Source of the DNA: Candidatus Scalindua japonica
GTDB taxonomy: Bacteria; Planctomycetota; Brocadiia; Brocadiales; Scalinduaceae
NCBI RefSeq assembly: GCF_002443295.1
Contig: NZ_BAOS01000017.1
Coordinates: 124,001 to 188,000 of the forward strand
Length of the DNA stretch: 64,000 bases
Direction: 5' to 3'
Shown here: positions 4,749 to 48,851 of the stretch, piece after piece
Position numbering within the stretch: position 1 is the first letter of the stretch
How the letters are laid out: each line of letters opens with the position of its first letter
Notes under the pieces: model-generated
What the model was told of the DNA's origin: nothing
Database searches by the model: none
Seen by the model: the letters and a program-made list of their open reading frames with translations, nothing else
Position numbers and translations under genes: made by a program

Positions 4749-6007
4749 TTAATTAGCTGCCACTGCCTCCGACAATGATTGGACGGTTATGATGGGCATT
4801 GACGTACTTAAATCTCTAAAATAATCATTTTCTACTGTAACTGCGGTTGGATTTCCATTTCCATTTATAACACCACCATAATGGATTATGCCTCCAATTA
4901 TATCTGAGTTACCATTGAATGTAATATCACCTTCGCAGATTATTATGGCGTCCATTGTGGCGGTCCCATTCAAAACAACGTCTCCTTTTACCCAGAACAC
5001 CCCCACCCCTTCCGGTTTGAACCAACGGTAAGGTCATTCTCAACATAGGTAAAGTTCGGCATTGCGTTTGTTGGTGCATCAATGTAGTAACTTGGATTTG
5101 ATGGTTCCGGATAATCATCGTTAGCATTGTCAATAGTCAAGTCCCAGGCATTGTAGTGTCCCTGATCAATGGCAATGACCTTAACAAAATCCACATCCAA
5201 TAACTGTGCAGGACGAATAACAATACCGGTCTCAGGGTCAGGGCCAGTATTGTTATCTACCCCGGGAGTACCAAAACTAGTTACAATAGAGCCATCATCA
5301 TTTGTCATGCCAAAACCTCCACCTGTTCCTGCAATACCACCACTCGTTTGTACACCCGGTTGTACTGCGGTGCCAGGAGAAGGAATAATAGTCACCTTTG
5401 TCTTTATCTGTCTTTGTGAGACTGTGGTACCGCCTCTTATAACCTTACCAGTCGCTATTATGGTGTAAACATCTGAGAAACCGTCAAGTGGATTACTCAC
5501 ATCAGTAACGTTATTGATAATGGTAGCATCATCACCATCATCATCTACTATGTCATCATCCGCAAGTGCTGTATCATCATCATTATTACCACGATCTAAA
5601 TCAACATCAGAATTTGTGGAATGCGGAGATGAGCCCGCGAGGTACGGTCTTTCAATCCAGTACTCTGCTCTTTCAGTAGTGCTGGATGATACGACGTACG
5701 GAGCACTCCTTATGCCTGTTGTAGCAGCTGGAAAAAGGGGAGTTCCGGAGGCATTCATACTAAAAAACCTGTACTTTGCATCCTGAAGGGCAAACATTGT
5801 TGCTGTATCAGCCAGGTAATAGGCCTTGTTTGAATTTATGGTTAGAGGTGCAGATACTTTCCAAGTACCCATAATAGAGGTAAAGATACCTCCCATTACT
5901 GACATAAGCACCATTATTACTATGATGGAAGTGAGGGCAATCCCTTCGTTTCTGTTAAAAAATCCAGGAAATTTCTTCAGTAATTTTGTAGTCTTAATAT
6001 TGACCAT
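4749..6007 (-). CDS. PilX/MshP-like minor pilus protein with apparent frameshift
   Basis: The first part (start to about 4988) has a pilin-like N-terminus: NEGIALTSIIVIMVLMSVMG, then NKAYYLADTATMFALQDAKY. It ends prematurely in ENDLTVGSNRKGWGCSG. The adjoining frame continues as GVFWVKGDVVLNGTATMDA and IICEGDITFNGNSDIIGGII, the repeated 'GDV-ING' motif typical of the C-terminus of this family. Adding one G to the G5 tract (C5 at 5000..5004 on the plus strand) joins the two parts as GWGVFWVKGD. The real product would be about 419 residues. A sequencing error, a true mutation or phase variation are all possible. I chose ATG 6007; a TTG at 6013 is an alternative. An acidic Asp-rich linker (about residues 135-165) is notable. 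Confidence 0.75.
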
Positions 6008-6069
6008 TTTCAAATAAAGTCGCTAATAATTTCAGCTTATAAATACACTTCTTACACTTCTTAGTTTAA

Positions 6070-6612
6070 CTAAAGACCATAGTTCCTGGGATAAATTTTT
6101 GTATTCCAATTAGAGCCGCCGTCAAGTACCAGATCTATGATAATTGCGTCAACACTGCTGCCATATTGCGGCACAGCATCGGCAATGAAGGTTGTAACAT
6201 GTTCCGCTATAACATCGCCTGAAGTATCGTTGCCAGGAAGACCTCCATAAGTTGTAGAGCTCTGCCTTCTCAGTTCATTAGTGGATGTATTCCGAATAAA
6301 TTTTACAAACAGGTTTCCGTCCAAACTTGAAGTAACATTTTTTTCAAATATTAGTTGATTTGTTGCTGTATTATTTATGGTTTTTGCCTCTTTTACCTCT
6401 CTACTTATCTTTTCCATTACCATGATGGCATCATCATTTCTCTCTTTTTTCTTCTGCATGGCAATTTGCGCGCTCAAACTTTTGGTAAGGACCCCAAAAA
6501 CAAAAGTCCCGAGTATAGAGGCAATTACAACCACTATAATCATCTCCATCAGAGTGAAACCAGCCTCTCCATCTTGAGTATGTTGACATTTATGTTTTCT
6601 ATTAATTTGCAT
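6070..6612 (-). CDS. Minor pilin, MshO/PilW/GspJ-like
   Basis: About 180 residues with a class III signal at residues 17-38: EAGFTLMEMIIVVVIASILG, cleaved before F with E at +5. The body follows with QKKKERNDDAIMVMEKISREVKEA, the usual helix region of GspJ/PilW/MshO proteins, then a beta-rich C-terminus. Minor pilins of this kind prime fibre assembly. The ATG at 6612 overlaps the stop of the preceding pilin gene by 11 bases, which suggests translational coupling; the longer frame from 6660 would lie within the upstream gene and is unlikely. Third of four consecutive prepilin genes after the platform gene's small partner, counting from the major pilin as the first it is the fourth. Confidence 0.85.
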   Translation of the reverse strand: MQINRKHKCQHTQDGEAGFTLMEMIIVVVIASILGTFVFGVLTKSLSAQIAMQKKKERNDDAIMVMEKISREVKEAKTINNTATNQLIFEKNVTSSLDGNLFVKFIRNTSTNELRRQSSTTYGGLPGNDTSGDVIAEHVTTFIADAVPQYGSSVDAIIIDLVLDGGSNWNTKIYPRNYGL

Positions 6613-7060
6613 TTGGATTATAAAAGTCCTTTGCCAGGATGGCCCAAAGGGTGACAACATCCGCGTTCTCCGAGTTGCTTACGCTTTCAGTAACTCTTAT
6701 GAAATCTGTAGGTGAAGCAGAGTAAGTGAAAGTGCTGCCTGAATGAGACACATATTCTCTCGTGGAGTTTTCAGTATAGAGACGCCCATTCAATGTAACA
6801 GAACTGGGGACATTACCAAGATTGCTGGTAGCGATCGTATAACCGGCATTTTTTAACTCTTCTATTTCTTTCTGTGCCAGATAAGTGGCCGTGGCATATA
6901 TCTCCGGCCTGGTCCCCTGCTTTATTCCAGTGGCAAAGGGTACAACAAGGGTAGAGGAGAGGACTCCTGTTACGGTTATGATCATAACGAGTTCTACAAG
7001 GGTAAAGCCCCTCTCTGACTTCAAATCCCATATCCTATTTTTACAAAAACTATTCTTCAT
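6602..7060 (-). CDS. Minor pilin, MshD/PilV-like
   Basis: About 152 residues from the ATG at 7060, four bases after the stop of the preceding pilin gene. A class III signal is seen near residue 17: SERGFTLVELVMIITVTGVL, with E at +5. The following segment YATATYLAQKEIEELKNAGY is typical of MshD/PilV/GspI proteins. The small C-terminal domain contains SPTDFIRVTESVSN. The longer open frame upstream to 7213 has no pilin features and overlaps the preceding gene, so it was not used. The position between an MshC-like and an MshO-like gene matches MshD. Confidence 0.82.
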   Translation of the reverse strand: MKNSFCKNRIWDLKSERGFTLVELVMIITVTGVLSSTLVVPFATGIKQGTRPEIYATATYLAQKEIEELKNAGYTIATSNLGNVPSSVTLNGRLYTENSTREYVSHSGSTFTYSASPTDFIRVTESVSNSENADVVTLWAILAKDFYNPNAN

Positions 7061-7064
7061 ACGT

Positions 7065-7547
7065 TTACTGTATAGCCGCTCTTCCTGTTGTATTCTCAAC
7101 AATAATATTTTTAAAAGCCCCTTCTGAAGTAATTCTAAGAATTCCACCCGCTCCTGTAACAGGTTCACCAGTGGAATTGAATGTATATATAAGATCTGTA
7201 GTACCAGTACCAACTGGACTAAATATTGCTCTAGAAAATTCCGGTAATTCTTTTGACTCGTTTGACCCTGCAGATGTAATAGTGTAAGTACTACCGTTTG
7301 AGGTAAATGTAATTGTTGTTTCTCTGTACTTGCTCATTGCCATCTCTTGTGTATGACGAATATCTGATTTTACCTGCCTGGCAACACTGTCAAGGTCTAT
7401 AGTATTAATTGCTCCCAATCTGGGCAGGGCAACCGCCGCCATTATCCCCGCAATAGCTATAACCATTACCAGTTCAAAAGTAGAAAAGCCTTCAGAGCGC
7501 CCATACACTATTTTCCGGAGTTTTTTTTCTATTATATTAATTTTCAT
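7065..7547 (-). CDS. Minor pilin, MshC/GspH-like
   Basis: About 160 residues from the ATG at 7547. The class III signal is SEGFSTFELVMVIAIAGIMA, with S-T in place of the usual T-L just before the conserved E. The next segment DLDSVARQVKSDIRHTQEMAM is the hallmark of the GspH/FimT/MshC group. The C-terminal half is rich in T, S and G and looks like a beta fold. The start is uncertain because no strong ribosome binding site is seen; an in-frame ATG upstream at 7613 would add a poor leader. Confidence 0.8.
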   Translation of the reverse strand: MKINIIEKKLRKIVYGRSEGFSTFELVMVIAIAGIMAAVALPRLGAINTIDLDSVARQVKSDIRHTQEMAMSKYRETTITFTSNGSTYTITSAGSNESKELPEFSRAIFSPVGTGTTDLIYTFNSTGEPVTGAGGILRITSEGAFKNIIVENTTGRAAIQ

Positions 7548-7736
7548 TTTCACTAACCTGCGTGGTGGCATGGACAAGTTTTGTTTGTCCGTATTCTCAG
7601 CATATTGTAACATTCCACACGAACAAATGAGTTTTTACATGCCACCCTACCGTTTCAAAAACTTTGAAATTCTACACATCCAGGCAGGCAAACTGAAATA
7701 GTAAACAGTTTACCCACCTGTACTATGTAGAATAAT
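7548..7736. other. Gap downstream of the major pilin with a small hairpin
   Basis: No gene seen. On the minus strand GGACAA and TTGTCC can pair around a seven-base loop near 7573..7591. In pilin operons such a structure after the major pilin often limits read-through, but there is no T-run here, so the role is not supported beyond position. Confidence 0.3.
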
Positions 7737-8168
7737 TTAAAAAGCGGAACTAGCATCTTCTGTTATCAAAGCAGGGGTATCACCACTCCTTGCCGTCCAA
7801 TCCCATTCGAAAGTTGAACCCTTATAATTCAAGATAATGGCGGTTCCTGCGGCGTTTGAAGCAATCTCTCCTGAAGCAGGGGTATCAGTGGCGGTAGCTT
7901 GATACGTTATACCACCGGTGAACGCGGTAGCAGCTAAGACATCGGCTAAAGTGTATGTAGTTGTATTAATCAGAAAATCAGAGTGTTCTGCCTGAATTGA
8001 CGAACTAAGTGCGCTTCCAACTCCCCTGGCGGCACTGAGCTTTGCTGAATCTGACAAACTTAAGAACTTAGGTATGGCAACGGCAGAAATTACCCCGAGG
8101 ATAACAATAACCATAATGAGTTCGATAAGGGTAAAACCTTCTTCACTTTTTTTCCGTTTTGACTGCAT
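7737..8168 (-). CDS. mshA: Major type IV pilin, MshA-like
   Basis: 143 residues with a short basic leader (MQSKRKKSEEG) and the prepilin peptidase site EEGFTLIELIMVIVILGVIS, with glutamate at +5. The next segment VAIPKFLSLSDSAKLSAARG matches MSHA pilins, which carry A-x-PKF-x-(N/S)-L at this point. The rest is a small domain rich in A, T and S. GGAGAAG lies about eight bases upstream of the start. It is the first and best-conserved pilin of the four and is followed by a 189-base gap, so it is probably the main fibre subunit. Unlike some MshA and PilA proteins, it has no Cys pair near the C-terminus. Confidence 0.85.
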   Translation of the reverse strand: MQSKRKKSEEGFTLIELIMVIVILGVISAVAIPKFLSLSDSAKLSAARGVGSALSSSIQAEHSDFLINTTTYTLADVLAATAFTGGITYQATATDTPASGEIASNAAGTAIILNYKGSTFEWDWTARSGDTPALITEDASSAF

Positions 8169-8301
8169 TTTTCTTCTCCTGTAAAAAATTATAAAATTCT
8201 TTAATAATTAACTGCTCAATACCTCTTTCATGGTTCTCTATACTAATCAATACCTCCTTTCTGTCTCTCTCTTTTAAAACAGATTGTTTTGTTTCAAACA
8301 T
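8143..8301 (-). CDS. Small charged protein between pilC and the major pilin
   Basis: 52 residues from the ATG at 8301, only two bases after the stop of the PilC gene, with GAGGTGG as a likely ribosome binding site inside the end of pilC. The product is almost entirely charged and helical (FETKQSVLKERDRKEVLISI, then NFLQEKKNAVKTEKK) without a signal or membrane segment. Its end overlaps the start of the pilin gene by 26 bases. The tight coupling supports real translation; a mere leader that couples pilC to pilin is the alternative. I do not recognise a family. MSHA operons carry a small gene (mshF) at a comparable place, but no similarity can be claimed. Confidence 0.45.
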   Translation of the reverse strand: MFETKQSVLKERDRKEVLISIENHERGIEQLIIKEFYNFLQEKKNAVKTEKK

Positions 8302-8303
8302 AA

Positions 8304-9524
8304 TTAACCACCTCTTTCTGCCAGCTTGGTAAGGTCCCACATGGGTAAGAATATAGCCAACATAAGGAAGAGCACAACTACTCCAAGAAATGCCAGGAGT
8401 ATTGGTTCAATAAGGCTTGCAATATTTTTGATTGAGTAATCAACTTCCATGTCATAATATTCAGAAACCTTGACAAGCATACTGTCAAGTTCCCCGGATT
8501 CTTCTCCCGCTGACATCATCTGTACTACCATAGGGGTAAAAAATTTTGATTTCTTCATGGTGGCGGCTACACTCTCTCCTCGTTGCACACCTTCTCTGAG
8601 ATCACCTATAACCTCGGATATTGGAATATTCCCAACTACGTCCGCACATATCTTCAGGTTCTCCAGGATTGATAGTCCACTTCGATTCAGGGTAGACAAG
8701 GTCCTGGTAAAGACCGACATGGCAATCTTAAGAAAAATAGGCCCAAAGATTGGGACCTTCAGCTTAAGCAAGTCGAGTTGACGACGTCCTAGATAGGTTT
8801 TGGCATATCCTCGATAAGCAAAAAACAGACATCCTGCTCCACCAAGGAGAAGGTACCAGTAGTTTGAAAAGATATCATTAGCGGCTATCAACATCCTTGT
8901 CGCAAGAGGTAGTTCAAGATTAACCTGCTTAAAGATACTCACAAAATTGGGGACCACGAATTTCATGAGTATTAATACGGCAATCAACATTGCGCTTATG
9001 ACTATCTTGGGATAACGTGTGGCAGCCTTTATCTTCGCCTTGGTTTCTGCTGCATGTTCCGCCAGAGAGGCAAGCCTCCCCAGGATATCATCAAGAGTAC
9101 CGGAAGCTTCTCCAGCTCGTATCATATTTATGTAAAGACTGGAGAACACTTTGGGATGTTTTGCAAGCGCGTCAGAGAAAGAAGAACCTGTCTGGATTTC
9201 TGCAGCCAGTTTAAAGAGAATCTCTTTAAAGGTTTTATTCTGCACCTGTTCAGCAAGCCCCTGGATCCCCATGAGCAATGGTATTCCTGCGGAAAAGAGG
9301 GTGGCAAGCTGACGGTTAAACACAATGAGATCTTTGTCCGTTACCTTTGGCTTTAAAAAACTGAATGAAGATGCGCTCTTAACCGCCTTACCTTCTTCCA
9401 GGTGAACAGGAATGTAACCCATTTCCCCCAGCTGAAACCTGGCAATATCCAGCCCCGCAGCTTCCAGAGTCCCTGCAACCGCTTTTCCGTATCCGTCCCT
9501 CGCCCTGTATTTAAAAACCGGCAT
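8304..9524 (-). CDS. pilC: PilC/MshG/GspF inner-membrane platform protein
   Basis: 406 residues, the full length of the family. The N-terminus VFKYRARDGYGKAVAGTLEA is the signature start of GspF/PilC proteins. Two repeated cytoplasmic domains follow: LIVFNRQLATLFSAGIPLL near residue 70 and FTRTLSTLNRSGLSILENLK near 270. Each ends with GE-(A/E)-SG (RAGEASGTLDDIL and SAGEESGELDSML). Three membrane segments lie at about 170-190, 215-235 and 375-395. It forms the inner-membrane platform on which the assembly ATPase acts. No assembly ATPase (PilB/MshE), retraction ATPase or prepilin peptidase is in the window, so these must be encoded elsewhere, perhaps left of the edge. GAGGTG lies seven bases before the start. 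Confidence 0.93.
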   Translation of the reverse strand: MPVFKYRARDGYGKAVAGTLEAAGLDIARFQLGEMGYIPVHLEEGKAVKSASSFSFLKPKVTDKDLIVFNRQLATLFSAGIPLLMGIQGLAEQVQNKTFKEILFKLAAEIQTGSSFSDALAKHPKVFSSLYINMIRAGEASGTLDDILGRLASLAEHAAETKAKIKAATRYPKIVISAMLIAVLILMKFVVPNFVSIFKQVNLELPLATRMLIAANDIFSNYWYLLLGGAGCLFFAYRGYAKTYLGRRQLDLLKLKVPIFGPIFLKIAMSVFTRTLSTLNRSGLSILENLKICADVVGNIPISEVIGDLREGVQRGESVAATMKKSKFFTPMVVQMMSAGEESGELDSMLVKVSEYYDMEVDYSIKNIASLIEPILLAFLGVVVLFLMLAIFLPMWDLTKLAERGG

Positions 9525-9535
9525 TATTCACCTCT

Positions 9536-9919
9536 TTATTTAACTGTCTCATCTAAATATTTTTCAACGGTATTTGTAAGCATATTCAGATCATAAGGCT
9601 TTGCTATGTACTCATTTCCACCACATGCAAGGCCCATTTCCCTGTCGGCATCCTGAATTTTTGAACTTACAATAATAATCGGGATATGCTTGAACCTGGC
9701 ATCAAACTTTAGCAGTCTGCAGAAATGGTAACCGTCCATTTTCGGCATCATAACATCCAGTATTATGAGCTGTGGTTGTTCATTGTTTACCATTGTCAGA
9801 GCGTCTTTTCCGTTTGTAGCCATAGTTACTACGTGTCCTTTTGCCTCCAGGGCAAACTTCAATGTTTCAGCGCTATAATAGTCATCTTCTACCAATAGTA
9901 ATTTTTTGTTCTCACTCAT
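9536..9919 (-). CDS. Single-domain response regulator
   Basis: 127 residues, one receiver domain: acidic pair E11-D12-D13, phosphoacceptor D55 in LIILDVMMPKMDGYHFC, conserved S/T at about 85 in IPIIIVSSKI and K at about 107 in EYIAKPYDLNML. It has no output domain. The start overlaps the stop of the upstream kinase gene by four bases (ATGA), so the two form a kinase-regulator pair. It sits directly upstream of the pilus genes, with 11 bases to pilC, so it may control pilus work by protein contact rather than by DNA binding. Confidence 0.9.
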   Translation of the reverse strand: MSENKKLLLVEDDYYSAETLKFALEAKGHVVTMATNGKDALTMVNNEQPQLIILDVMMPKMDGYHFCRLLKFDARFKHIPIIIVSSKIQDADREMGLACGGNEYIAKPYDLNMLTNTVEKYLDETVK

Positions 9920-11673
9920 TTGTATAAAGGCAGAGTAAAAACGAAATTACTGCCCCCTCTCCCTTTACTTTCTACCCAGATTCTTCCTCCCTGTGCTTCT
10001 ATGATGTCTTTGCATATGCTCAAACCCAATCCTATGCCGTAGTGTTTTTTTGTCGTGGCATTCTCAACCTGATAGAACCTTTCAAATATCTTGTCCTGCT
10101 CCTCAAGAAAAATACCTGCCCCATTATCCTTAACACTGATTTCTACCTCATCTTCCGTAGATTTTGTACTTACTACTATTTCTCCACCATGAGGCGTAAA
10201 CTTAAAGGCATTATCCAGAAGATTCAGCAACGCCTGCCTTGTCCTGTTTGAATCTGCCAGGACTGAAGGATGGCTTCCGTTATTATTGATCAGAGACACT
10301 TTATTCTCTTCAGCCTTGAACCACTGGCTCTCTATAGTGCTTTTTATTATCTTGTCGAGGTCCACCTTTTCCCGCTTTAATGGTACTTTTCGTATTTCTG
10401 AAATGGTTATATCCAGAAGTGTAGTAGTCAGGTTTGACAGATATTCAACTCCATCATTTATTATATGTAAAAATTTCTTCTGAGAGTCCGTGTTCGGCCC
10501 CAGCATCTCCTGGAGCAATAGGTTTACCGCGTTTTTCATAGATGTTATAGGAGAAAGTAACTCGTGAGAAGCGATAGTTATAAATTCTGACTTTACCTGG
10601 TCAAATTTTTTATCCCGTGTAATATCTTTAAACACAACTAAACAGCCTTTTTTTCTCTCGTAGTTAATTTCCCCGTTTATTTCTGAGAACTCTACTTTTA
10701 TTACCCTTACCTCAGGTATCTGAATAGTTATCTCTTCAGAAGTAAGCGAATCCACCTCTCCTCTCAACCATTTTGATATTTTACCCAGTCCTGATTTTTC
10801 CAGTAATTCTTCTGTTTCCTGCTTATCAATGTCCTTTTTGATTTTCCAACCCAGCATCCATTTGACTGCGGGATTTACAACCACAGCATCGTCATCCTGT
10901 GTGATTATTATCACACCTTCAGCCAGGTTCTCTACAGCCAGATTAAACATATTCATGTTTTCAGCAAACCTGGTTTTCGGGTTTTTTATCTTGCCGGCAC
11001 TAACCATAGAGATAGCATTTGAGGCAAAGATGGCAAAAGACTTTAAAAGCCATTCATCATAAGAGGTAAACCGGCCTTTTCCTTTTTTATTTACAACCTG
11101 AATCGCTCCGATTACCTTATTACTCTGCTGTTTGACAGGAATGCATAAGACGGTACTTGTTTTGTATCCCAGGTTGTTATCAAGTTCTGGATCAAACAGA
11201 GGGCTCTGGTAAGCATCTTCAAGCTTGATAGTTTCTGAAGTCTTTGCTACATATCCGGCTAAACCGTTACTAAGAGGTAAGCGTATTTCCCTGACTTCTT
11301 CATTGTAAATAAAAACACACTTGAACTCATCTGCTTCTTCATCCACCAGAAACAGATTACACATATCGGATTCTAATATTCGTTTAGCTTCAGTCATTAT
11401 AAATTTGAAAAGGGATGCCTGATCAATACACTTCATCATTCCAATAGAGGTATTAAAGAGATGCGCCAACTTCTGCTCTGTCTTGCGCGTAATATTGAGA
11501 ACACTTTTAATTAAATCGCTTGTTGTGTAACCTAAATCGATCAATATGTTTCCCAGCGCCTTACCATTTGTTTTCTGTACTTCCAGCGCTTCCTTTATCT
11601 GTTTCTGATTTATAATTTTTTTGTCCAGCAGTAACTGCCCGAACATCTGTTTGTTTTCTTCTTTGACAATCAT
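9916..11673 (-). CDS. Histidine kinase with GspE/MshE N-terminal-like, GAF and PAS domains
   Basis: 585 residues, no membrane segment seen. Residues 10-60 match the double motif of the GspE/MshE N-terminal domain: FGQLLLDKKIINQKQIKEAL and ALGNILIDLGYTTSDLIKSV. A GAF domain follows at about 75-225, ending in VIGAIQVVNKKGKGRFT. A PAS domain covers about 240-350, with VVNPAVKWMLGWK. The HisKA helix carries H370 in FITIASHELLSPITS, and the ATPase domain has DNAFKFTPHGGEI, VKDNGAGI and GIGLGLSICKDI. In MshE this N-terminal domain binds c-di-GMP; here the first-position Arg is replaced by Met10, so binding is uncertain. It is the first gene of the pilus locus and pairs with the receiver downstream. 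Confidence 0.88.
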   Translation of the reverse strand: MIVKEENKQMFGQLLLDKKIINQKQIKEALEVQKTNGKALGNILIDLGYTTSDLIKSVLNITRKTEQKLAHLFNTSIGMMKCIDQASLFKFIMTEAKRILESDMCNLFLVDEEADEFKCVFIYNEEVREIRLPLSNGLAGYVAKTSETIKLEDAYQSPLFDPELDNNLGYKTSTVLCIPVKQQSNKVIGAIQVVNKKGKGRFTSYDEWLLKSFAIFASNAISMVSAGKIKNPKTRFAENMNMFNLAVENLAEGVIIITQDDDAVVVNPAVKWMLGWKIKKDIDKQETEELLEKSGLGKISKWLRGEVDSLTSEEITIQIPEVRVIKVEFSEINGEINYERKKGCLVVFKDITRDKKFDQVKSEFITIASHELLSPITSMKNAVNLLLQEMLGPNTDSQKKFLHIINDGVEYLSNLTTTLLDITISEIRKVPLKREKVDLDKIIKSTIESQWFKAEENKVSLINNNGSHPSVLADSNRTRQALLNLLDNAFKFTPHGGEIVVSTKSTEDEVEISVKDNGAGIFLEEQDKIFERFYQVENATTKKHYGIGLGLSICKDIIEAQGGRIWVESKGRGGSNFVFTLPLYK

Positions 11674-12416
11674 AGGTTATCACAGCCTGTAATTATTTTC
11701 CGGTTATTGAAGATTAAAATGTTATTATTTTGATCCAAAAAAAAGAGCTGGATCAGAAATAAAAAAGATCTCTATAACATTTATCGGTTATGTAACGAGA
11801 AACATTAGTTATTAAATAATTGTGAACAACTAAAAAAGTTAAATACTGACGGACTGCCTGAGAATAGGAGTTTTGTCAGATCTGTAAGGCGTAAACCATT
11901 TAGAATCGATGCATAGCTCTTTTGGTTTTGTATTCTTGCACGACATGCTGGCTGTTGAATACAATTGGTTTTGCGACCTGATTTCATATTTGTTCATTTG
12001 TTAATATCGCACTTAATGTTCCAAAACTTTTTAATTCTGGAAAATAATATCATGATAAACTTAAGTGCGAGTGATTAAAGATGATATGAAAGGAATTGGT
12101 ATAGTCTATAAAAAGGAATATGGGTGTGAATTAAGAAGCACCAGATTCTCTGTTCTAAAAATGAAACAAGGGTGCCTTATATTGAAACACCTGTTAGCTT
12201 AAAATGGGAATATGAATAAGATGTGTTCAGGTGTTTATTGTCCCCAGGCTTCCAACATGTTGTCTCTGCCCGTCAGGTAGCAATGCTATGAGCATGGAGT
12301 ATATCATCCCTGTCTGAACAGCCCGGTCTGGCGGGAACTCATTTCTCCGTGTCCGTGCTTTTCACGCATTACTATGTAATGGAGATTTCAGAAAATAGTA
12401 ATTCAATCTAATATTA
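11674..12416. other. 743-base gap between pilus kinase and tldD
   Basis: No convincing gene. The part next to the kinase is AT-rich and should hold the promoter of the minus-strand pilus locus, but no clear -35/-10 pair stands out. The stretch 12235..12365 is clearly richer in G and C than its surroundings and has several short complementary segments, such as GCCCGGTCTGGCGGG. It may be a small RNA, an untranslated leader or a remnant of a mobile element; I could not name it. An open frame at 11805..11987 has no features of a gene. Confidence 0.45.
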
Positions 12417-13778
12417 TCATCTTCCGCCGATTGTAACATTCTTTATTCTGATATGCGGTCCGCCGTCGCTTACACGCAGGGGTGACTGTCCGCCTTTACC
12501 GCATCCACCAAGCCCTCCGTACAGCACAAGGTCGTTACCGATTGCGTCTATGTTCATTAATGTTTCAAATACATTACCTGTTAATACTACATCGCGGACC
12601 TGTTCACAAATCTTTCCGGCTTTTATTCTATACGCTTCCTCCGCGCTGAAAGTAAACATCTCTGTATTAGTCTGCCCGCCAAGCGACCCCTTTGCGTAGA
12701 TTCCATCTTCTGTTCCGGCCAACATATCTTCAAATGTTTGATCGCGAGATTCCATATAGGTGTTAGTCATGCGAACAATCGGTTCACTGCCATAGCCGAT
12801 AGCCCTCGCGTTTCCGGTCGGGTCTTCGTTCATTTTGGCGGCTGTTTCTCTTGAATGCAGGCGGTTGGCCAGGATTCCATCCTTTATCAGGTATGTTTTC
12901 TGAGTGGGAGTGCCCTCACTGTCATATTTGTTATAGCCGGCTTCTCCTACAAGTGTACCATCGTCTACAATAGACAACTCGTCAGAACCGAAGCGTTTTC
13001 CGATTTTCATAATCTCACGAAGCTTCTGGTTTTCATAGATAAAATCTGCTTCGCTCAGATGTCCAAATGCTTCGTGCGTAAACACACCGCAAAGTTTTGG
13101 ATCAACAATTACGGTATACTTGCCGGCATCCACCGGTTTGGCGGAAAGCAGGTCCACAGCTCTCTTTGTAACCTCTTCACAACTCTCTTCAAAATTTTCA
13201 ACTTTCCTGTACCCTCTGAGATCTCCAATTGAATTGTATGCCTGCTGCACATCCATACCGTCTTTTGCCATTGCCATGACCGAAACACCGCAGAATATAT
13301 TTTCGCAAACGATAAAACTACCTTCCGAGTTCGCGAAGTAAAGCGTACCGTGGGAATCCACATATCTTACACTGGAAGTCTGTATCTTTTTTGAAGATAA
13401 GATGATATTATTGTACTTTTGACATAAATCATGTTTATCAATCAACGAGACGTCTGCCGGATCAAGATCAACCTGTGTTTTTACAATGTCATTAACTATC
13501 CCGGTTTCTGCAAGCGAAACGTCTTTATTACCAACCAGCTTTGCCTGTTCACATGCCATTTTTACATAGCGAGGTAAATCTTCAATATCATTAAAGGCGA
13601 CAAATCCCCACCCGCCATTTACGAGAGCGCGCACACATCCCCCCATCATGCTGCTTTCGCCGATACTCTCCAACTCCTTACCCACATAAGAGACACCGGT
13701 CCCTCTTCCTTCATTAACACGTATTTCTATATGGTCTGCTTTTGCAGATTTTAAAGCATTCTTAATCAATTTTTCCAT
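12417..13778 (-). CDS. tldD: TldD-type metallopeptidase
   Basis: 453 residues. TldD acts with TldE as a zinc-dependent peptidase that trims unfolded peptides and matures some peptide products. The zinc motif HEAFGH lies at residues 235-240 in KLCGVFTHEAFGHLSEADF, followed by the typical GTPTQKTYLIKDGIL region near 290-310. The C-terminus has GGCGKGGQSPLRVSDGGP, the conserved last part of the family. AGGAAGGA precedes the start. It follows ligA by 18 bases and may be transcribed with it. No tldE (pmbA) partner is within the window; homologues of this D-type length can also act as homodimers in some species. Confidence 0.92.
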   Translation of the reverse strand: MEKLIKNALKSAKADHIEIRVNEGRGTGVSYVGKELESIGESSMMGGCVRALVNGGWGFVAFNDIEDLPRYVKMACEQAKLVGNKDVSLAETGIVNDIVKTQVDLDPADVSLIDKHDLCQKYNNIILSSKKIQTSSVRYVDSHGTLYFANSEGSFIVCENIFCGVSVMAMAKDGMDVQQAYNSIGDLRGYRKVENFEESCEEVTKRAVDLLSAKPVDAGKYTVIVDPKLCGVFTHEAFGHLSEADFIYENQKLREIMKIGKRFGSDELSIVDDGTLVGEAGYNKYDSEGTPTQKTYLIKDGILANRLHSRETAAKMNEDPTGNARAIGYGSEPIVRMTNTYMESRDQTFEDMLAGTEDGIYAKGSLGGQTNTEMFTFSAEEAYRIKAGKICEQVRDVVLTGNVFETLMNIDAIGNDLVLYGGLGGCGKGGQSPLRVSDGGPHIRIKNVTIGGR

Positions 13779-13796
13779 TTTGTTCCTTCCTACAAA

Positions 13797-15863
13797 CTAG
13801 AGGTTAATTAATTTTTCAAACTCCTCTGTATTTAAAATTGTTGTTCCCAGTTCTTTTGCCTTTGTCAACTTTGATCCAGGGGATTCACCGGCAATCAGAA
13901 AATCAGTTTTGCTACTTACGGCTGACGATACTCTGCCACCCAGATTTTTTATTATGCCCTCGGCCTCTTTCCTGGTATATCCATTCAATGTTCCTGTTAC
14001 TACGAAAGATTTCTCCGCTATAGGGGAGACACTCTTCGTATGTCGGCTAATCGCGGTAAGATTAACACCTGCGGTCTTTAACTTTCTGATAACATCTTGT
14101 GTATGGCTATTTGAGAAGAAATCTACTAAGCTTTTTGCCGTGATGCTGCCAATTTCGAAAATCTCCTCCAACTCTTCGACAGAGGCGTTCATAAGTTTGT
14201 CAAGTGTGCCGAACTCTTTTGATAACACCTCCGCTGCATGAGAACCGATATTCTGAATACCTAACGCGCAGACCAAAAGATGCAAATCTCTAGACTTACT
14301 CTTTTCTATTTCTGTGATAAGATTTTGAGCAGATTTTTCTCCCATTCTTTCCAGTGGTACAAGGTCATCAACTTTCAATGAATAAATATCAGCATAATCA
14401 TTAATAATCTTTTTATCTACCAATTGCTCGATCAGGGCCGGACCTAACCCCTCGATATTCATTGCGTTTCTACTCGCAAAGTATACTATTCTTCTCTTCG
14501 CCTGGGCGGTACAGAGGGGATTATGGCATTTCAGATAAACCTCTTCTTTAATAACATCTCCTTCACAGGCAGGACATTTTTCCGGAACATCAAACCGTTG
14601 CTCGTTACCGGTGCGTTTCTCCTTCAACACCTTAACTACCTGAGGGATTATCTCTCCCGCTTTCCGAACAATGACACAGTCTCCTACGCGAATATCCTTT
14701 CTCTCAATTTCATCAAAATTGTAAAGCGATGCCCTGCTTACCGTTGTACCGCTGAGCGGGACAGGGTCTAATTCTGCTACAGGAGTTAATATACCTGTTT
14801 TTCCAACCTGCACCTTTATCGTCTCGATCTTTGTGGTCGATTCTTCCGGCTGATACTTGTAGGAGATAACCCAACGCGGCGCTTTACTGGTTGAGCCCAA
14901 TATGCCATGAAGTCCTAATGAGTTAACTTTTATTACCATTCCATCTACCTGATATTCAAGCTCACTTCGTCTGCTTTCCCACAAATTACAGTATGAGATT
15001 GCTTCATCCATGTTTTTGCATAATTTATAGTGCGGGTTTACCGGAAGACCGAACTTTTTTATTGTTTCAAGGCATTCAATATGGTCTGTAAATTTACTAT
15101 CACCATAATATCCAAAGGCATAGGCAAACAGGCGGAGGGGCCGTTTGGCTGTTGTTTGGGGATTAAGGAGTTTAAGAGAGCCTGCAGCGGCATTTCTGGG
15201 ATTTGCAAATAAGGGTTCACCTTCTTCTTCACGTCTTTGATTCAGTATCTGAAAATCCCCGTCCGGAAGATATATTTCGCCACGGATCTCAATACTTGGC
15301 GGTATTCTGATGTGATCATCACACAGAAATCTTAAAGGTATGTCCTTTACCGTTCTTAAATTTGCGGTGACGTCATCTCCCCTGATACCGTTGCCTCTTG
15401 TAGCGCCACGTGTGAAGATTCCATTTTCGTACCACAGTGAAATTGCCACACCATCAATCTTATGTTCTATAACATATTCTATCTCCTCGATCAGCTCAAG
15501 ACTGCCTTCCTGTGCCGAAGTCCGCCCGGCTATGTCACTCAAGCGGGTATTTTTTAATTTTCGTCTTATTCTTCTGTCAAATTCTCTTAATTCCTCCTCT
15601 GAGTATGTGTTTTCAATGCTGAGCATGGGTATCTTGTGTTCAACTGACTTGAATTCCGGAACAGGTTCACCGCTTACACGTTGAGTTGGTGAATCAGGTG
15701 TGATCAATTGCGGGTGGGAATTTTCAAGCATTTCCAGCTGTTTCATCAGTTGATCGTATTCATAATCCTCAATTTCAGGCATGTTTGAAACATAATACTT
15801 TCCGTCGTGGTATCGTATCTTTGCGCGAAGGTATTCAACCTTCTCAATTACATTTTTATTCAC
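13797..15863 (-). CDS. ligA: NAD-dependent DNA ligase
   Basis: 688 residues, the usual length of LigA, which seals nicks in DNA during replication and repair. The catalytic lysine is K135 in EHKIDGVAISLWYENG. An N-terminal Ia domain (YHDGKYYVSNMPEIEDYEYD), the OB fold (VQVGKTGILTPVAELDPV), a four-Cys zinc finger (CPACEGD, then CHNPLCTAQAK), helix-hairpin-helix repeats (ALGIQNIGSHAAEVLSKEFG) and a C-terminal BRCT domain (KSFVVTGTLNGYTRKEAEG, ending near residue 688) are all visible. The start is GTG at 15863, supported by the conserved first helix. A roughly 20-residue charged insertion just before the KxDG motif (about 105-128) is longer than in many homologues. Confidence 0.95.
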   Translation of the reverse strand: MNKNVIEKVEYLRAKIRYHDGKYYVSNMPEIEDYEYDQLMKQLEMLENSHPQLITPDSPTQRVSGEPVPEFKSVEHKIPMLSIENTYSEEELREFDRRIRRKLKNTRLSDIAGRTSAQEGSLELIEEIEYVIEHKIDGVAISLWYENGIFTRGATRGNGIRGDDVTANLRTVKDIPLRFLCDDHIRIPPSIEIRGEIYLPDGDFQILNQRREEEGEPLFANPRNAAAGSLKLLNPQTTAKRPLRLFAYAFGYYGDSKFTDHIECLETIKKFGLPVNPHYKLCKNMDEAISYCNLWESRRSELEYQVDGMVIKVNSLGLHGILGSTSKAPRWVISYKYQPEESTTKIETIKVQVGKTGILTPVAELDPVPLSGTTVSRASLYNFDEIERKDIRVGDCVIVRKAGEIIPQVVKVLKEKRTGNEQRFDVPEKCPACEGDVIKEEVYLKCHNPLCTAQAKRRIVYFASRNAMNIEGLGPALIEQLVDKKIINDYADIYSLKVDDLVPLERMGEKSAQNLITEIEKSKSRDLHLLVCALGIQNIGSHAAEVLSKEFGTLDKLMNASVEELEEIFEIGSITAKSLVDFFSNSHTQDVIRKLKTAGVNLTAISRHTKSVSPIAEKSFVVTGTLNGYTRKEAEGIIKNLGGRVSSAVSSKTDFLIAGESPGSKLTKAKELGTTILNTEEFEKLINL

Positions 15864-43018: not shown

Positions 43019-43403
43019 TGATAACCTCTTTTATTTTGAATTAATCAGTGCTCTACGGGAAGACTTCTCTCGCCAACATGTCATTCTGAAGGAGGAACGA
43101 CTGAAAAATCTCTTCATGGAAACCCTACAAACCTTACAAAACATCAATTGGACCGTCTATATATTCTCATTTTACAAAGTAAAATGCCAGATAGTTTTTT
43201 CCTCTCTTCCCCGGACAAAAGACGCCGAGACTCTTTCCCACGCTTTACTTGTTCACTTGTTTCCACGCAATATCAAATTCTTTTTTCCTGATTTTCCTGC
43301 ATTCCTTAGCGGTAATAATATTTCTCTGCGGAAGGCTACCGCCTTCCATTAAAAAAATAGAGAGAAGCAGAGATACAGAGTAAAGAGGCTTCAGAGATCA
43401 GAG
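43019..43403. other. 385-base gap between the TolC-like and NACHT genes
   Basis: No supported gene. It holds copy B of a dispersed repeat (43078..43118), whose sense strand contains CATTCTGAAGGAGGAACGAC. A plus-strand open frame at 42906..43352 overlaps the start of the TolC-like gene and this repeat and is taken as chance. Confidence 0.5.
43078..43118. repeat. Dispersed repeat, copy B
   Basis: ATGTCATTCTGAAGGAGG, then AACGACTGAAAAATCTC; half of the palindrome seen in copies A (31521..31587) and C (56216..56312). The other arm is lacking here. Confidence 0.55.
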
Positions 43404-46400
43404 TTAAAATGGGGAAAACACAAGACGAAACCCAATAACGTCGTCCCCGTCATCTGGATTGTCCCCGCCACGGTAAGCGCAACGCACGAACCCGCTGATA
43501 TTGTTGAAACAACCGCCACGAATAACTCGGTAACTATCTTTAGATTCATTCAGGTTTTCTCTTCCATCATCCGGAACATATGGATACTCCTTATAAATAC
43601 TTCGTGTCCATTCCCACACATTCCCGCTCATCTCCTCGCAGCCATAAGGAGTTACTCCTGTGGAAAAGCAACCTGCCGCACTGGTAGAGCCGATGCCTGT
43701 GTCGGAGTAATTCGCGCAATTCGTGTCAGGTTCATTTCCCCATGGATAGATGCGTTCCGGATCAGTGTTGGCTTCAAGCGTAGGAACACCAATTTTATTC
43801 ATATCGTTAACAGGTTTCATGAACTTTTTTATAGGTATCTCCAGACCACCACGTATTGCCTTCTCCCACTCAGCCTCGGTTGGTAGCTTTACTATGAGGT
43901 CGCCAGGGAGAATACCCTGATTTTTCCATACCTCATTCAACCATCGTGTAAATGCCAGAGACTCATACCACGTCACTCCGACAACCGGATGATCAGGCAG
44001 GGAAAACGGAATACTGAATTGATATGGCCCTTCTCTGAATGTATCATCCCACCTTCCCTTTACTTTTCCATCCTGCCATATTTTAACATCCTTTGCCTCT
44101 TTCCAATACTCTTCTTTTTTGTATCCACTATCATCTATAAATTTCTGAAATTGTGATTGTGTAACAGGATATTGAGAGATCCAGAAATCATGAGAAAGAG
44201 TATCATTCCGGTGCAAACCCTCTTTTTCACCCATCTGAAAATCTCCTTTCGGGACCAGGCAAAAAGGCATTTCATCTAGAGATATTACCTCTTTTCGCGC
44301 ATCGCCTATACGTGCCAGGTTGACACCGGCAGTTGTTCTCTCACCGGGAGGAAACGCGTTTATAGAGATGATCTCCCGTAGATAAAGTCTTACTTTTTCC
44401 AACTTTTTGCGGTTTGGTTCACTCAATTTAGTAAGATTTGTACTTTCAGCTAGAGCTTCAGCGGCAATGTGCGCGCCCCAGATATCTTCAGTTTTTTTGC
44501 TTATATCTTCCGGTTCGCAATAGCACATCGCATCTACGAATGTCCAGATTATCGAACTTGTTCCGCGGGCAGCTTTGGCACAGGCAAGCAGAGCTACCTC
44601 ACGCCAGCGATTTGGTTCTTTCCTGACCAGTTCGGCTATTTGATCCGGGAAGTCGGTATCTGTAAGATAGCAGGCTGAGAGATACTCCTGGAAAGTGCGA
44701 TGTGGAAATGTATAGACCTTAATACCACGAGGTAAGAGAATCCCTGCACGGTCAACGAGAAATTCTATCAGCCTCGCGGGTTTGACTTCAGGGTTATTAC
44801 TCAAATCTATTAAACCGCTTACCAGATCTTTTTCTGAAATATCAGCAGTCCCCATCACTTCAGGTTGGCATTTATGCACTGTAAAAGCAAGCTCGTTGAG
44901 TAAATTGCGTACCTTGTCCTTGTCTATTTTCAAGAATTCTGCAATGCTGGGTTGTAATACCTTGATCGTGCCATCCGATTTGCGAACTGTCTTGGGGGCC
45001 ACCCACCACTCAAGTAGCAGGTCTACGGTATCGGCATATAGCACTTCGCGTTTTTCCGGGAGGCTGCCGCCGCGCCATGCGTTCAAACTGGCCATAAGGG
45101 TCAGGAGCAGAGGCCGCTCGGCAAGGGCATACAGGCGGTTGTTTCCGGAGATCGTGCGTTTGAGTTTTTCCGCCTTCCCCTGCGCATCTACTCTGTTTGT
45201 GCCTCTTATATTAGCAGTGTGGATATACCAGTGATCAATAAAGTTGTTAATCTGTGCTCGACTGAATGGGGCGAGCACAGTTTCCGAAAATTCAGACAAA
45301 CGCCAGTCCTGCTTCTGATAGGCGTATGTACGGCTGGTAACGATTATACGGCACCGGTGGAACGTATCAGCAAAATCCTCAACGGACTGCCTTATCTGTG
45401 TTCGTCGTTTGTCTGCCTCCGGTACTTCGTCCAGACCGTCAAAGAAAACTAATCCGCCTTTTTCAATCAGCTCCTTTTTCAGATAGGCGGCATACTCTTT
45501 TAATGCGAGTTCCGATTCGACAAACTGCCATATATGATCAGAAGTGGCTTTTTCTCCGACCGGTGGCAGTCCACGGGCCGCGAAATCACGTAAAATTATC
45601 CGGACAGGCATCAATGCTCCATGATTCCATGGTTGGGGTTTTCTTTTCTCTTCATCCTCTTCCGGTAGCGGAGATCTCAGCATCTCAAGATTAATCTTTT
45701 CATCACCGAGAAATTCACCGCTAAAACAGAGGGCCGCGAAATTCACAAATGTACTTTTCCCACTGCCGGGATCTCCAAGAATAACCAGTCTATTGTGTAG
45801 ATCAAGTTGCTCCATCACTGATTGTCGGCGGCCCTCTCTTTCTGGAGATTTCTCCTTAAGCAGATTTTCGTGTTCTTCAGGAGTTAAGGTAATGAGCGCA
45901 GTATACACTGCGTCAAGTTTGAGTTGGGCTTCCTTCTCATCGATTACCGCTTTGGGATCAACTCCGGCAAGGGAGAGTTGCCGGCACTGTTGGAAAAGGT
46001 GGTTAAGATACACGTTGCGGAGGGCTATCGGGTCAAGGCTGTCAGAGGGCTGTATGAATACTGCGTCAGCTTTAATAAAAACATTTTCAAAACTCTGTAG
46101 ATTACCCATTCGGTCCAGTTCTTTCCGCAATGTCTCTTCAAACCATTTTCTGTCATCTTCACGAAGGGATTTTTCGGCATATGTTACAGCATCGAGCTTT
46201 TGAAGGAGTTCATCCAGCTCCTTGCGCAGGTCTTGATTGTTCTCGATTTCAGATTCAATCTTTTTTGCCGCGTCAGCTTCGTCTTTCCAGCCCTGGAGCC
46301 TGTTTGCGAGAAGGCTGGTACCCAGACCAGAAACGAGCTTGCCAAGTTCCATTATTGGGGCCAGATCACCACCATTTACTGCCTGTATTACCGGCAGGAG

Positions 46401-46517
46401 TGCGGAGGCGGAGACAAACGCGTAGATGGACTTTACCCCGGACTCTTTCATCCTTCCACTCCAGCCTTCGAAACGCTTTTTAAGATTTCCCTTCCATGAT
46501 TGGATTGAGAATGGCAT
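43404..46517 (-). CDS. NACHT NTPase with C-terminal formylglycine-generating-enzyme-like domain
   Basis: 1037 residues. Residues 1-230 have no named domain: a hydrophobic stretch at about 28-48 (VKSIYAFVSASALLPVIQA) and coiled-coil helices. NACHT: Walker A GDPGSGKST (248-256), Walker B GLVFFDGLDEVPE (near 355-366) and IIVTSRTYAY, then FPHRTFQEYLSACYL, typical of NACHT winged-helix parts. From about 757 there is an FGE-sulfatase domain: GDFQMGEKEG, ISQYPVTQSQFQKFI, VTWYESLAFTRWLNE, LPTEAEWEKAIRGG, GCEEMSGNVWEWTRS. The last 41 residues (RVIRGGCFNN to the end) resemble a diversity-generating variable region. STAND NTPases of this kind often act in phage defence or signalling. GGAGGTAC precedes the start. 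It lies between copA and a tolC-like gene. Confidence 0.88.
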   Translation of the reverse strand: MPFSIQSWKGNLKKRFEGWSGRMKESGVKSIYAFVSASALLPVIQAVNGGDLAPIMELGKLVSGLGTSLLANRLQGWKDEADAAKKIESEIENNQDLRKELDELLQKLDAVTYAEKSLREDDRKWFEETLRKELDRMGNLQSFENVFIKADAVFIQPSDSLDPIALRNVYLNHLFQQCRQLSLAGVDPKAVIDEKEAQLKLDAVYTALITLTPEEHENLLKEKSPEREGRRQSVMEQLDLHNRLVILGDPGSGKSTFVNFAALCFSGEFLGDEKINLEMLRSPLPEEDEEKRKPQPWNHGALMPVRIILRDFAARGLPPVGEKATSDHIWQFVESELALKEYAAYLKKELIEKGGLVFFDGLDEVPEADKRRTQIRQSVEDFADTFHRCRIIVTSRTYAYQKQDWRLSEFSETVLAPFSRAQINNFIDHWYIHTANIRGTNRVDAQGKAEKLKRTISGNNRLYALAERPLLLTLMASLNAWRGGSLPEKREVLYADTVDLLLEWWVAPKTVRKSDGTIKVLQPSIAEFLKIDKDKVRNLLNELAFTVHKCQPEVMGTADISEKDLVSGLIDLSNNPEVKPARLIEFLVDRAGILLPRGIKVYTFPHRTFQEYLSACYLTDTDFPDQIAELVRKEPNRWREVALLACAKAARGTSSIIWTFVDAMCYCEPEDISKKTEDIWGAHIAAEALAESTNLTKLSEPNRKKLEKVRLYLREIISINAFPPGERTTAGVNLARIGDARKEVISLDEMPFCLVPKGDFQMGEKEGLHRNDTLSHDFWISQYPVTQSQFQKFIDDSGYKKEEYWKEAKDVKIWQDGKVKGRWDDTFREGPYQFSIPFSLPDHPVVGVTWYESLAFTRWLNEVWKNQGILPGDLIVKLPTEAEWEKAIRGGLEIPIKKFMKPVNDMNKIGVPTLEANTDPERIYPWGNEPDTNCANYSDTGIGSTSAAGCFSTGVTPYGCEEMSGNVWEWTRSIYKEYPYVPDDGRENLNESKDSYRVIRGGCFNNISGFVRCAYRGGDNPDDGDDVIGFRLVFSPF
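43425..43530 (-). other. Candidate hypervariable tail (C-type-lectin-fold VR-like) of the NACHT-FGE protein
   Basis: Codes for RVIRGGCFNNISGFVRCAYR followed by GGDNPDDGDDVIGFR. Invariant positions of the RGG...R(C/S)A.R...P....GFR pattern are kept, and at positions where template repeats of diversity-generating retroelements usually code Asn (AAC/AAT), this gene has ATC, AGC, TTC, TAC, GGC, GAC and GTT. That fits adenine-directed change but does not prove it. No template repeat or reverse transcriptase was recognised in the window. Confidence 0.4.
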
Positions 46518-46550
46518 GTCTGGTACCTCCGTGTTTTTTTGTAAAATTTC

Positions 46551-46596
46551 GTTCCCACACAGCTTGCCCGACTGGCAATGTGGCGGGAGCGTGAGA
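46551..46596. repeat. Intergenic palindrome
   Basis: GTTCCCACAC at the left and GTGGCGGGAGCGTGAGAAC at the right form an imperfect hairpin with GCCCGACTGGC in the loop. It lies between the NACHT start and the copA stop, directly beside another repeat (46609..46654). Confidence 0.45.
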
Positions 46597-46601
46597 ACAA
46601 G

Positions 46602-48851
46602 TTAATCTTCTCTTTCGAGAGGAGTCCAAAACTGGACCCCTCTCAAAAGAGAGGAAAATGTGTTCACGTTATTTTTTTCACTCCCTGATTTAAACCTTCT
46701 CAATCTCAGTGAGTTAGTAACCACGGACACCGAACTGAACGCCATGGCTCCCGCCGCGATCATGGGATTAAGGAAACCGCATGCGGCGAGAGGGATTGCA
46801 AGGACGTTATAGCCGAAAGCCCAGAAAAGGTTCTGTTTGATTATCTTCATTGTCTGCCTGCTCAGCTTCAAAGCTTCCCACGCCTTTGTAATATCACCCT
46901 TAACGAGGGTGATATTTGCGGCCTCCATCGCTATTTCGGTAGCTGTTCCGATTGCGAAACTGACATCCGCAGTGGCGAGGGCAGGTGCGTCATTTATTCC
47001 GTCCCCTATCATTCCAACGACATTGCCCTCTTGTTGAAGCCTCTTTATCTCATCACATTTGTCCGAGGGTTTGAGATTTGCGTGAACAGTTTTTATGTTC
47101 ATCTTTTTCCCAATCGCTTCCGCAACTATCTCATTATCACCGGTAAGCATAACAGTTTCAATGCCCATATCCTTGACTCTTTGAATAGCGTTTTCCGACG
47201 TTTCTCTGACTACATCTCCAATACCAATGACGGCTTTTATCTCATTTTCAATGGCTACAAAAGCAACACTCTTGCCCTCACTTTTGATATCTTCAGCCTT
47301 CTGTTTTAAGCCTGAAATATCTATACGGTTTTCTCTCATCAGTCTTTCACTGCCGATTAATACAGTAGACCAGTTATAATTAACCCATATACCCATACCG
47401 GTAACTGTCTTGAAATCTTTTACTTCGTCTATCTCTACATCCAGCGCCCTGACATAGTTTACTATTGCCTTCCCAATGGGATGTTCTGAATGTTGTTCAC
47501 AGCTTCCTATTATGCGTAAAAAGTCTCTCGTCTTTTCATTAAATATTTCTGTTGCCTCTTCTTCACCACTCATTTTATGATACATGTCCGTGACCCTTGG
47601 TCTTCCTTCAGTTATTGTACCTGTTTTATCCAATACAAGTGTATTGATCTTGTGTGCAAGTTCGAGGCTCGTCGCGTCTTTGATCAGTATTCCAGCCCCG
47701 GCTGCCCTGCCGGTACCCACCATGACTGCTGTAGGTGTGGCGAGACCCAACGCGCATGGGCATGCGATCACCAGTACCGCGACTGCGGGAATAATTGCCT
47801 CGCTGAATGGATTGCCTGTCAGCAGCCATACACTAAGGGTCAACAATGCGATGGAAACAACGATCTGCACAAATACCCCTGATACTTTGTCCGCCAACCG
47901 TTGAACAGGGGCCCTCGATCCCTGGGCGTCCTCTACCAGTTTTGCTATATGGGCCAGTACCGTATCTGCCCCGATGTTCTCAGCCTTCATATAAATGAGA
48001 CCGGTTGTATTTACCGTACCACCAAATACCTCGTCATCTTCCATTTTTTTTACCGGCATACTTTCTCCTGTCAACATCGATTCGTCAATGGAAGTGCTTC
48101 CTTCTGTTATTACCCCGTCGACCGGGACCTTCTCACCGGGCCTTATTATAAGCGATTCTCCTACCTCTACTTCAATTACCGGAACCTCTATTGTTGTACC
48201 ATCCCGCACCACTCTTGCCGACTTCGGCTGCAGGTCCATCAGCTTCCTGATCGCCTCACCGGCCTTGCCTTTTGCCTTTGATTCGAAAAACCTGCCGAGC
48301 AGGACCAATGTAATTATTATTGAAGCAGATTCAAAATAGAGAGCGCTTCCTCGATTTAAAAGAGTTATTACACTGAAACCATAAGCAGCGCCTGATCCCA
48401 ATGCAATCAGGGAGTCCATCCCTAACGACCAGTGCTTGATCTGTTTCAGCGCGTTTTTGAAAAAACCGATGCCCGGCCAGAAAATTACAGTAGTTGTTAA
48501 AACGAATTGGCAGATGTCTGAGAATCTGAAATGAAGCATAAACATGCTGATTATGAAGACCGGTACGCTTAGTATTGCTGAGATCAAAAACTTTTTCCAC
48601 TCGGATTGAGCAATCTCTTCTTCGGATAGGGAGGGAGCTTCTCCCTTGACTACGTTATAACCCAGTCCCTCAATAATTTTATGGATCTCTTCAGCAGTAA
48701 CACTGCCCGTAACCGTAGCCCTCTTTGTGGCAAAGTTAACTACAGATTCATTTACCCCTTCCGCGTTACCAATAGCGGCCTCTATCCTCTGCGCACACGA
48801 GGCGCAGGACATTCCTGATATTTCTATAGTAATGTTTTCTCGTTTTGACAT
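46602..48851 (-). CDS. copA: Copper-transporting P1B-type ATPase
   Basis: 749 residues from ATG 48851, which follows poor upstream sequence; the longer frame to 48914 is not supported. One heavy-metal-binding domain with [18 protein letters not shown] (CxxC), eight expected membrane segments, TGES in MLTGESMPV, the CPC metal site in [18 protein letters not shown], phosphorylated Asp in [13 protein letters not shown] motif in [10 protein letters not shown], and hinge [16 protein letters not shown] and S residues after [16 protein letters not shown] fit Cu(I) pumps. The last 29 or so residues after [11 protein letters not shown] are not family-like; about 17 of them are coded by a repeat (46609..46654). 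Confidence 0.94.
46609..46654. repeat. Palindromic repeat inside the 3' end of copA (copy 2)
   Basis: CTCTTTCGAGAGGAGTCC and GGACCCCTCTCAAAAGAGAGG make an imperfect hairpin. The layout and much of the sequence match 2244..2291. It codes the last residues of CopA ([17 protein letters not shown]). Confidence 0.6.

Follow-up and report, generated by a model that had tools for sequence, protein, structure and literature searches.

A gene that joins a NACHT ATPase to a formylglycine-generating-enzyme-like (FGE) domain, and ends in a tail resembling the target of a diversity-generating retroelement (DGR), raises the question of whether its recognition surface is still being rewritten, was rewritten in the past, or merely looks as though it had been. 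The gene lies in a stretch of 64,000 nucleotides (the window), which corresponds to C17:124001-188000 of a 4.81-Mb assembly. This genome encodes hydrazine synthase alpha, and the host is therefore very likely an anammox planctomycete.

The gene is a single, intact open reading frame of 1037 amino acids with no internal stops (Table 1). A sequence-only reading had recognised a NACHT ATPase fused to an FGE-like domain, and profile searches bear this out, since both Pfam families score above their cut-offs (NACHT, 30.6 bits against 26.7; FGE-sulfatase, 157 bits) and both Walker motifs are present, giving the protein the NTPase that characterises STAND/NACHT NLR-like proteins. As in DGR targets, a C-lectin/FGE fold is C-terminal and the variable repeat (VR) stands at the end of the gene. 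An AlphaFold model, with a mean pLDDT of 76 and low values in the tail and VR, was matched by Foldseek to the folds of NOD2, NLRC4 and NLRP3 and, at lower rank, to the sulfoxide synthases EgtB and OvsA, which have the C-lectin fold in common. Pfam gave no match over residues 1-230; in one paralogue on contig C15 of the same genome, this N-terminal position is occupied by NNH5. PADLOC returned only weak matches to the window gene, and Rfam had no match in the gene or in the DGR loci described below.

Table 1. Features of the window gene and of the DGR on contig C15 (window positions, unless another locus is named).
Feature	Position	Strand	Basis
NACHT-FGE protein	43404..46517	-	ORF; Pfam NACHT and FGE-sulfatase above cut-offs; AlphaFold model/Foldseek fold matches
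N-terminal all-helical region, residues 1-230, probable adaptor/effector	45828..46517	-	AlphaFold secondary structure; homologous in G021
NACHT NTPase, residues 244-432	45222..45788	-	PF05729
Walker A GDPGSGKST	45750..45776	-	Sequence; almost invariant among homologues
Walker B FFDGLDEV	45423..45446	-	Sequence; almost invariant among homologues
FGE/C-type-lectin domain, residues 754-1033	43419..44258	-	PF03781, E 9e-46
Variable-repeat-like core, 26 codons flanked by RGG and GFR	43434..43511	-	Alignment to template repeat of G058
Inserted segment, missing at equivalent G004 site	43201..46690		DNA similarity breaks at 46690, resumes at 43200
C15 DGR	L026 (G000:C15:29500-49400) 5042-14428		
C15 template repeat	L026 about 9034-9162		

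The tail reads RVIRGG-CFNNISGFVRCAYRGGDNPDDGDDVI-GFR and aligns without gaps to the template repeat (TR) of a related genome, G058. Across the core, adenines of this TR are changed at 15 of 27 positions and other bases at 15 of 51; at codon positions 1 and 2 the figures are 15/27 for adenines and 5/25 for the remainder (Fisher p 0.009, uncorrected, with the G058 TR being the best of five compared). The differences are thus concentrated at template adenines, although the test is indirect, the TR coming not from the window's own genome but from a relative about 61% identical at the protein level; against the more distant TRs of L096 and C15 it was non-significant. The adenine excess is specific to the VR because adenines at positions 1 and 2 of the FGE body differ at just 29 of 150 sites (tail excess p=2e-4, uncorrected), while non-adenine bases in the VR change at the same rate as in the body. 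In all 14 mutable codons (AAY or AGG in the G058 TR), positions 1 and 2 are altered at A only and the third-base class is retained, a score reached by three of 97 FGE tails: the G058 TR, the VR of G058 itself and the window tail. The window tail is identical to that VR at only 9 of 26 positions, against about 61% for the gene body. By these sequence comparisons the tail has the character of a DGR variable repeat, its fit at the mutable codons exceeding chance. The tail had been described beforehand as shaped like a DGR target, and the adenine-specific pattern, together with a family composed of DGR targets, upholds that description. The accompanying proposal, that the variable codons are an asparagine template altered at adenines, holds for the adenine-only pattern but needs one correction: three variable codons are GGG, which adenine changes cannot produce from AAC or AAT, and these stand opposite AGG codons of the G058 TR.

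Within the order, the closest relatives are in G058 (61%) and G021 (53%); apart from these and a fragment in G048, the other genomes of the order yielded no close homologue, and the gene was not found in the remaining genomes of the genus at E<=1e-40. A tree built without the VRs groups the window gene with G058 and G021_C26b (100/99), and then with a Rhodobacteraceae MAG, L092 (100/99). In each of these three relatives the homologous target lies beside Avd, TR and RT (reverse transcriptase), G058 retaining an RT remnant only; in G058 and G021 the RT is located further on, past Avd and TR. The G021 TR differs from its VRs almost exclusively at adenines, and in L092, whose Avd and RT are 69% and 63% identical to those of G021, all seven VR differences over a 52-base match fall at TR adenines. 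VRs that depart from their TRs at adenines alone, or almost so, are also found at NACHT-FGE/DGR loci of the Chloroflexota MAGs L096, L098, L129 and L148 and of G003, G019 and G021. No relatives were confirmed on viral contigs, and plasmids and phages gave partial matches only, below about 33% identity. Two of the loci deserve separate mention. The G058 locus (L079, G058:C57, 8140-12706) is a decaying DGR with a frameshifted NACHT-FGE target, an intact Avd and TR, and the C-terminal part of an RT; and L083 (G003:C140), from the same genus as the window, is a DGR with a NACHT-FGE target in which 21 of 22 VR differences are at TR adenines.

The window gene stands between a heavy-metal P-type ATPase gene upstream and a gene for an outer-membrane efflux protein (tolC-like) downstream, and the ORFs around it showed no recognisable defence island. 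In G004, a genome of the same genus, the ATPase and tolC genes are adjacent with an empty site between them, defining an insertion of about 3.5 kb; the GC content of the window gene is 0.467, compared with 0.408 in the flanks. Native intergenic sequence is back about 200 bp beyond the VR, where the relatives carry Avd and TR. Several smaller features of the site were also recorded. The end of the ATPase ORF (46602-46690) diverges from the G004 gene at the start of the insertion, with about 30 unrelated residues added. Relatives have palindromic GTTCCCACGC/GCGTGGGAAC repeats at this intergenic site (L178 and L182 intergenic), and pieces similar to them flank the inserted gene at 43220-43330 and 46540-46600. 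In L182 and L179 the site holds a small ORF of transposase-like appearance without a Pfam match. One candidate homing structure, a hairpin (GGAAGGC-GGTA-GCCTTCC) some 60 bp beyond the stop codon, was dropped, homologues differing in sequence there.

The host's own genome was searched for a mutator. A 60-base pattern in which every base was allowed to derive from A matched only the window itself, both in this genome and in 62 genomes of the order; the G058 TR retrieved nothing significant from the host genome, and no TR matching the tail was found in the assembly. A single Avd was detected, on C15, and reverse transcriptases with a DGR-like motif are limited to the C15 enzyme and a fragment on C34, all of other lineages than the window gene. 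The C34 fragment (L027, G000:C34:55000-74900, 9506-10240) has the motif IGNLNSQ and lacks its N-terminal part. It was discarded as a second mutator, being 35% identical and having neither TR nor Avd recognised near it. The sequence-only reading was right that the window contains no reverse transcriptase, and the genome-wide search it called for did locate a DGR RT, on C15, without a TR to match the tail; its further suggestion that the recognition end is hypervariable and adjustable at present is not supported, since neither a tail-matching TR nor an Avd or RT of the gene's lineage was found in the assembly. Of the two results that the reading named as refuting it, the lack of a usable template was observed.

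A live target could nevertheless escape such searches. As the assembly consists of 47 contigs and is 96.8% complete, a TR/RT cassette could be missing from it, or be carried by other cells of the population, with the tail still being diversified in cis or in trans. In Thiohalocapsa PB-PSB1, diversification does reach some loci lacking RT or TR, either in trans or thanks to an intact locus in other cells (PMC10907252), and the window ORF and its motifs are intact. Against this stand 4.8 Mb without TR, Avd or RT of the right lineage, a search of 62 genomes of the order that returned no TR fitting the tail, and the native sequence that already occupies the place of Avd and TR; we regard continuing diversification as unlikely. 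It is more improbable still that this is an ordinary FGE-domain protein, DGR-like in its tail merely through the conserved RVxRGG...GFR frame. That frame is indeed common in FGE proteins, and this genome has non-target examples of it, but three further FGE tails from the genome reach only 9 of the 14 mutable codons, with non-adenine differences of 0.36-0.40 against 0.20 for the window tail; the tree, moreover, nests the gene among DGR targets, and its VR outpaces the body in divergence at TR adenines only.

Contig C15 carries an apparently complete DGR: a TR, an RT, an Avd that passes the NF033474 cut-off, an HRDC protein and a pair of NACHT-FGE targets, whose N-terminal regions are metallophosphatase-like in the one and NNH5 in the other. 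In the shared part, its VRs differ from the TR nearly always at adenines. As a candidate active system it ranks above the window gene. For all its apparent completeness and similar targets, it is very hard to credit as acting remotely on the window gene, because its TR, rejected as template of the tail, mismatches it at 20 C, 15 A, 13 G and 6 T and has a 3' end that is absent there, and its RT and Avd (40% and 32% identical to the G021 counterparts) are of another lineage.

We conclude that the window gene is probably an orphan and frozen former DGR target of the STAND/NACHT-CLec sensor kind, as its tail, relatives and surroundings suggest. Diversification would have stopped, leaving a binding face that most likely no longer changes, because searches of the assembly brought up neither a TR that fits nor an Avd or RT of the gene's lineage. 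The ancestral cassette may have comprised target, VR, Avd, TR and RT; RT with Avd would have copied TR RNA with errors at adenines, the copy replacing the VR and so generating many ligand-binding faces, before the target gene alone was inserted between the ATPase and tolC-like genes. The FGE domain may bind an invader or signal molecule, upon which NACHT would oligomerise on ATP and the helical N-terminus would relay a defence or cell-death signal; both ligand and output are conjectural. We give an even chance to the fuller history, in which a retroelement-diversified sensor of NLR type parted from its mutator, by transfer or separation of the one gene, and was kept as an immune receptor of fixed specificity in a host where another DGR serves two further NACHT-FGE sensors.

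It has been proposed that NACHT/STAND proteins whose C-lectin ends are varied by DGRs act as adaptive-like immune sensors, and here one genome holds an apparently complete sensor pair on C15 beside a seemingly frozen relative, so that two states can be compared. Adenine-scarred VRs can evidently outlive their mutator, and searches that require an adjacent RT miss such receptors. The range of the system would also extend to anammox planctomycetes, for which our literature search met no report.

The architecture is of a known type, the STAND/NACHT-CLec DGR targets, of which the window gene is an orphan member. Dore et al. 2024 (PMC10907252) proposed antigen sensing for STAND-CLec targets and also described DGR loci left incomplete by the loss of RT or TR. 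The targets of DGR RT clade 5D, such as Thiohalocapsa PB-PSB1 DGR 3 and DGR 6, share with the window protein the central STAND NTPase, the C-terminal C-lectin (FGE) domain with its VR, an N-terminal extension of no assigned kind and the proposed role of antigen sensor (PMC10907252); the window gene differs in its hydrazine synthase-bearing (anammox) host and in its isolation, its surroundings holding neither Avd, TR nor RT, nor another target. In Thiohalocapsa DGR 1, 4, 5 and 7 the target is likewise separated from, or without, RT or TR (PMC10907252), but these loci keep traces, a matching TR elsewhere or intact population variants, whereas at the window locus the target alone was inserted, and the searches gave no TR to match it. 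Bacterial NACHT and Avs antiviral proteins have the same NLR-like tripartite layout of NTPase and C-terminal sensor, although in those characterised so far the sensor consists of repeats, TPR for example (PMC10907252), and the putative sensor here is FGE. Finally, Kaur et al. 2020 (PMC7159879) linked FGS domains, DGRs and conflict systems, and their ternary systems employ the same FGE-like hypervariable domain as an interaction module; there FGS is mostly fused to vWA components with MoxR, whereas in the window protein it is fused to NACHT.
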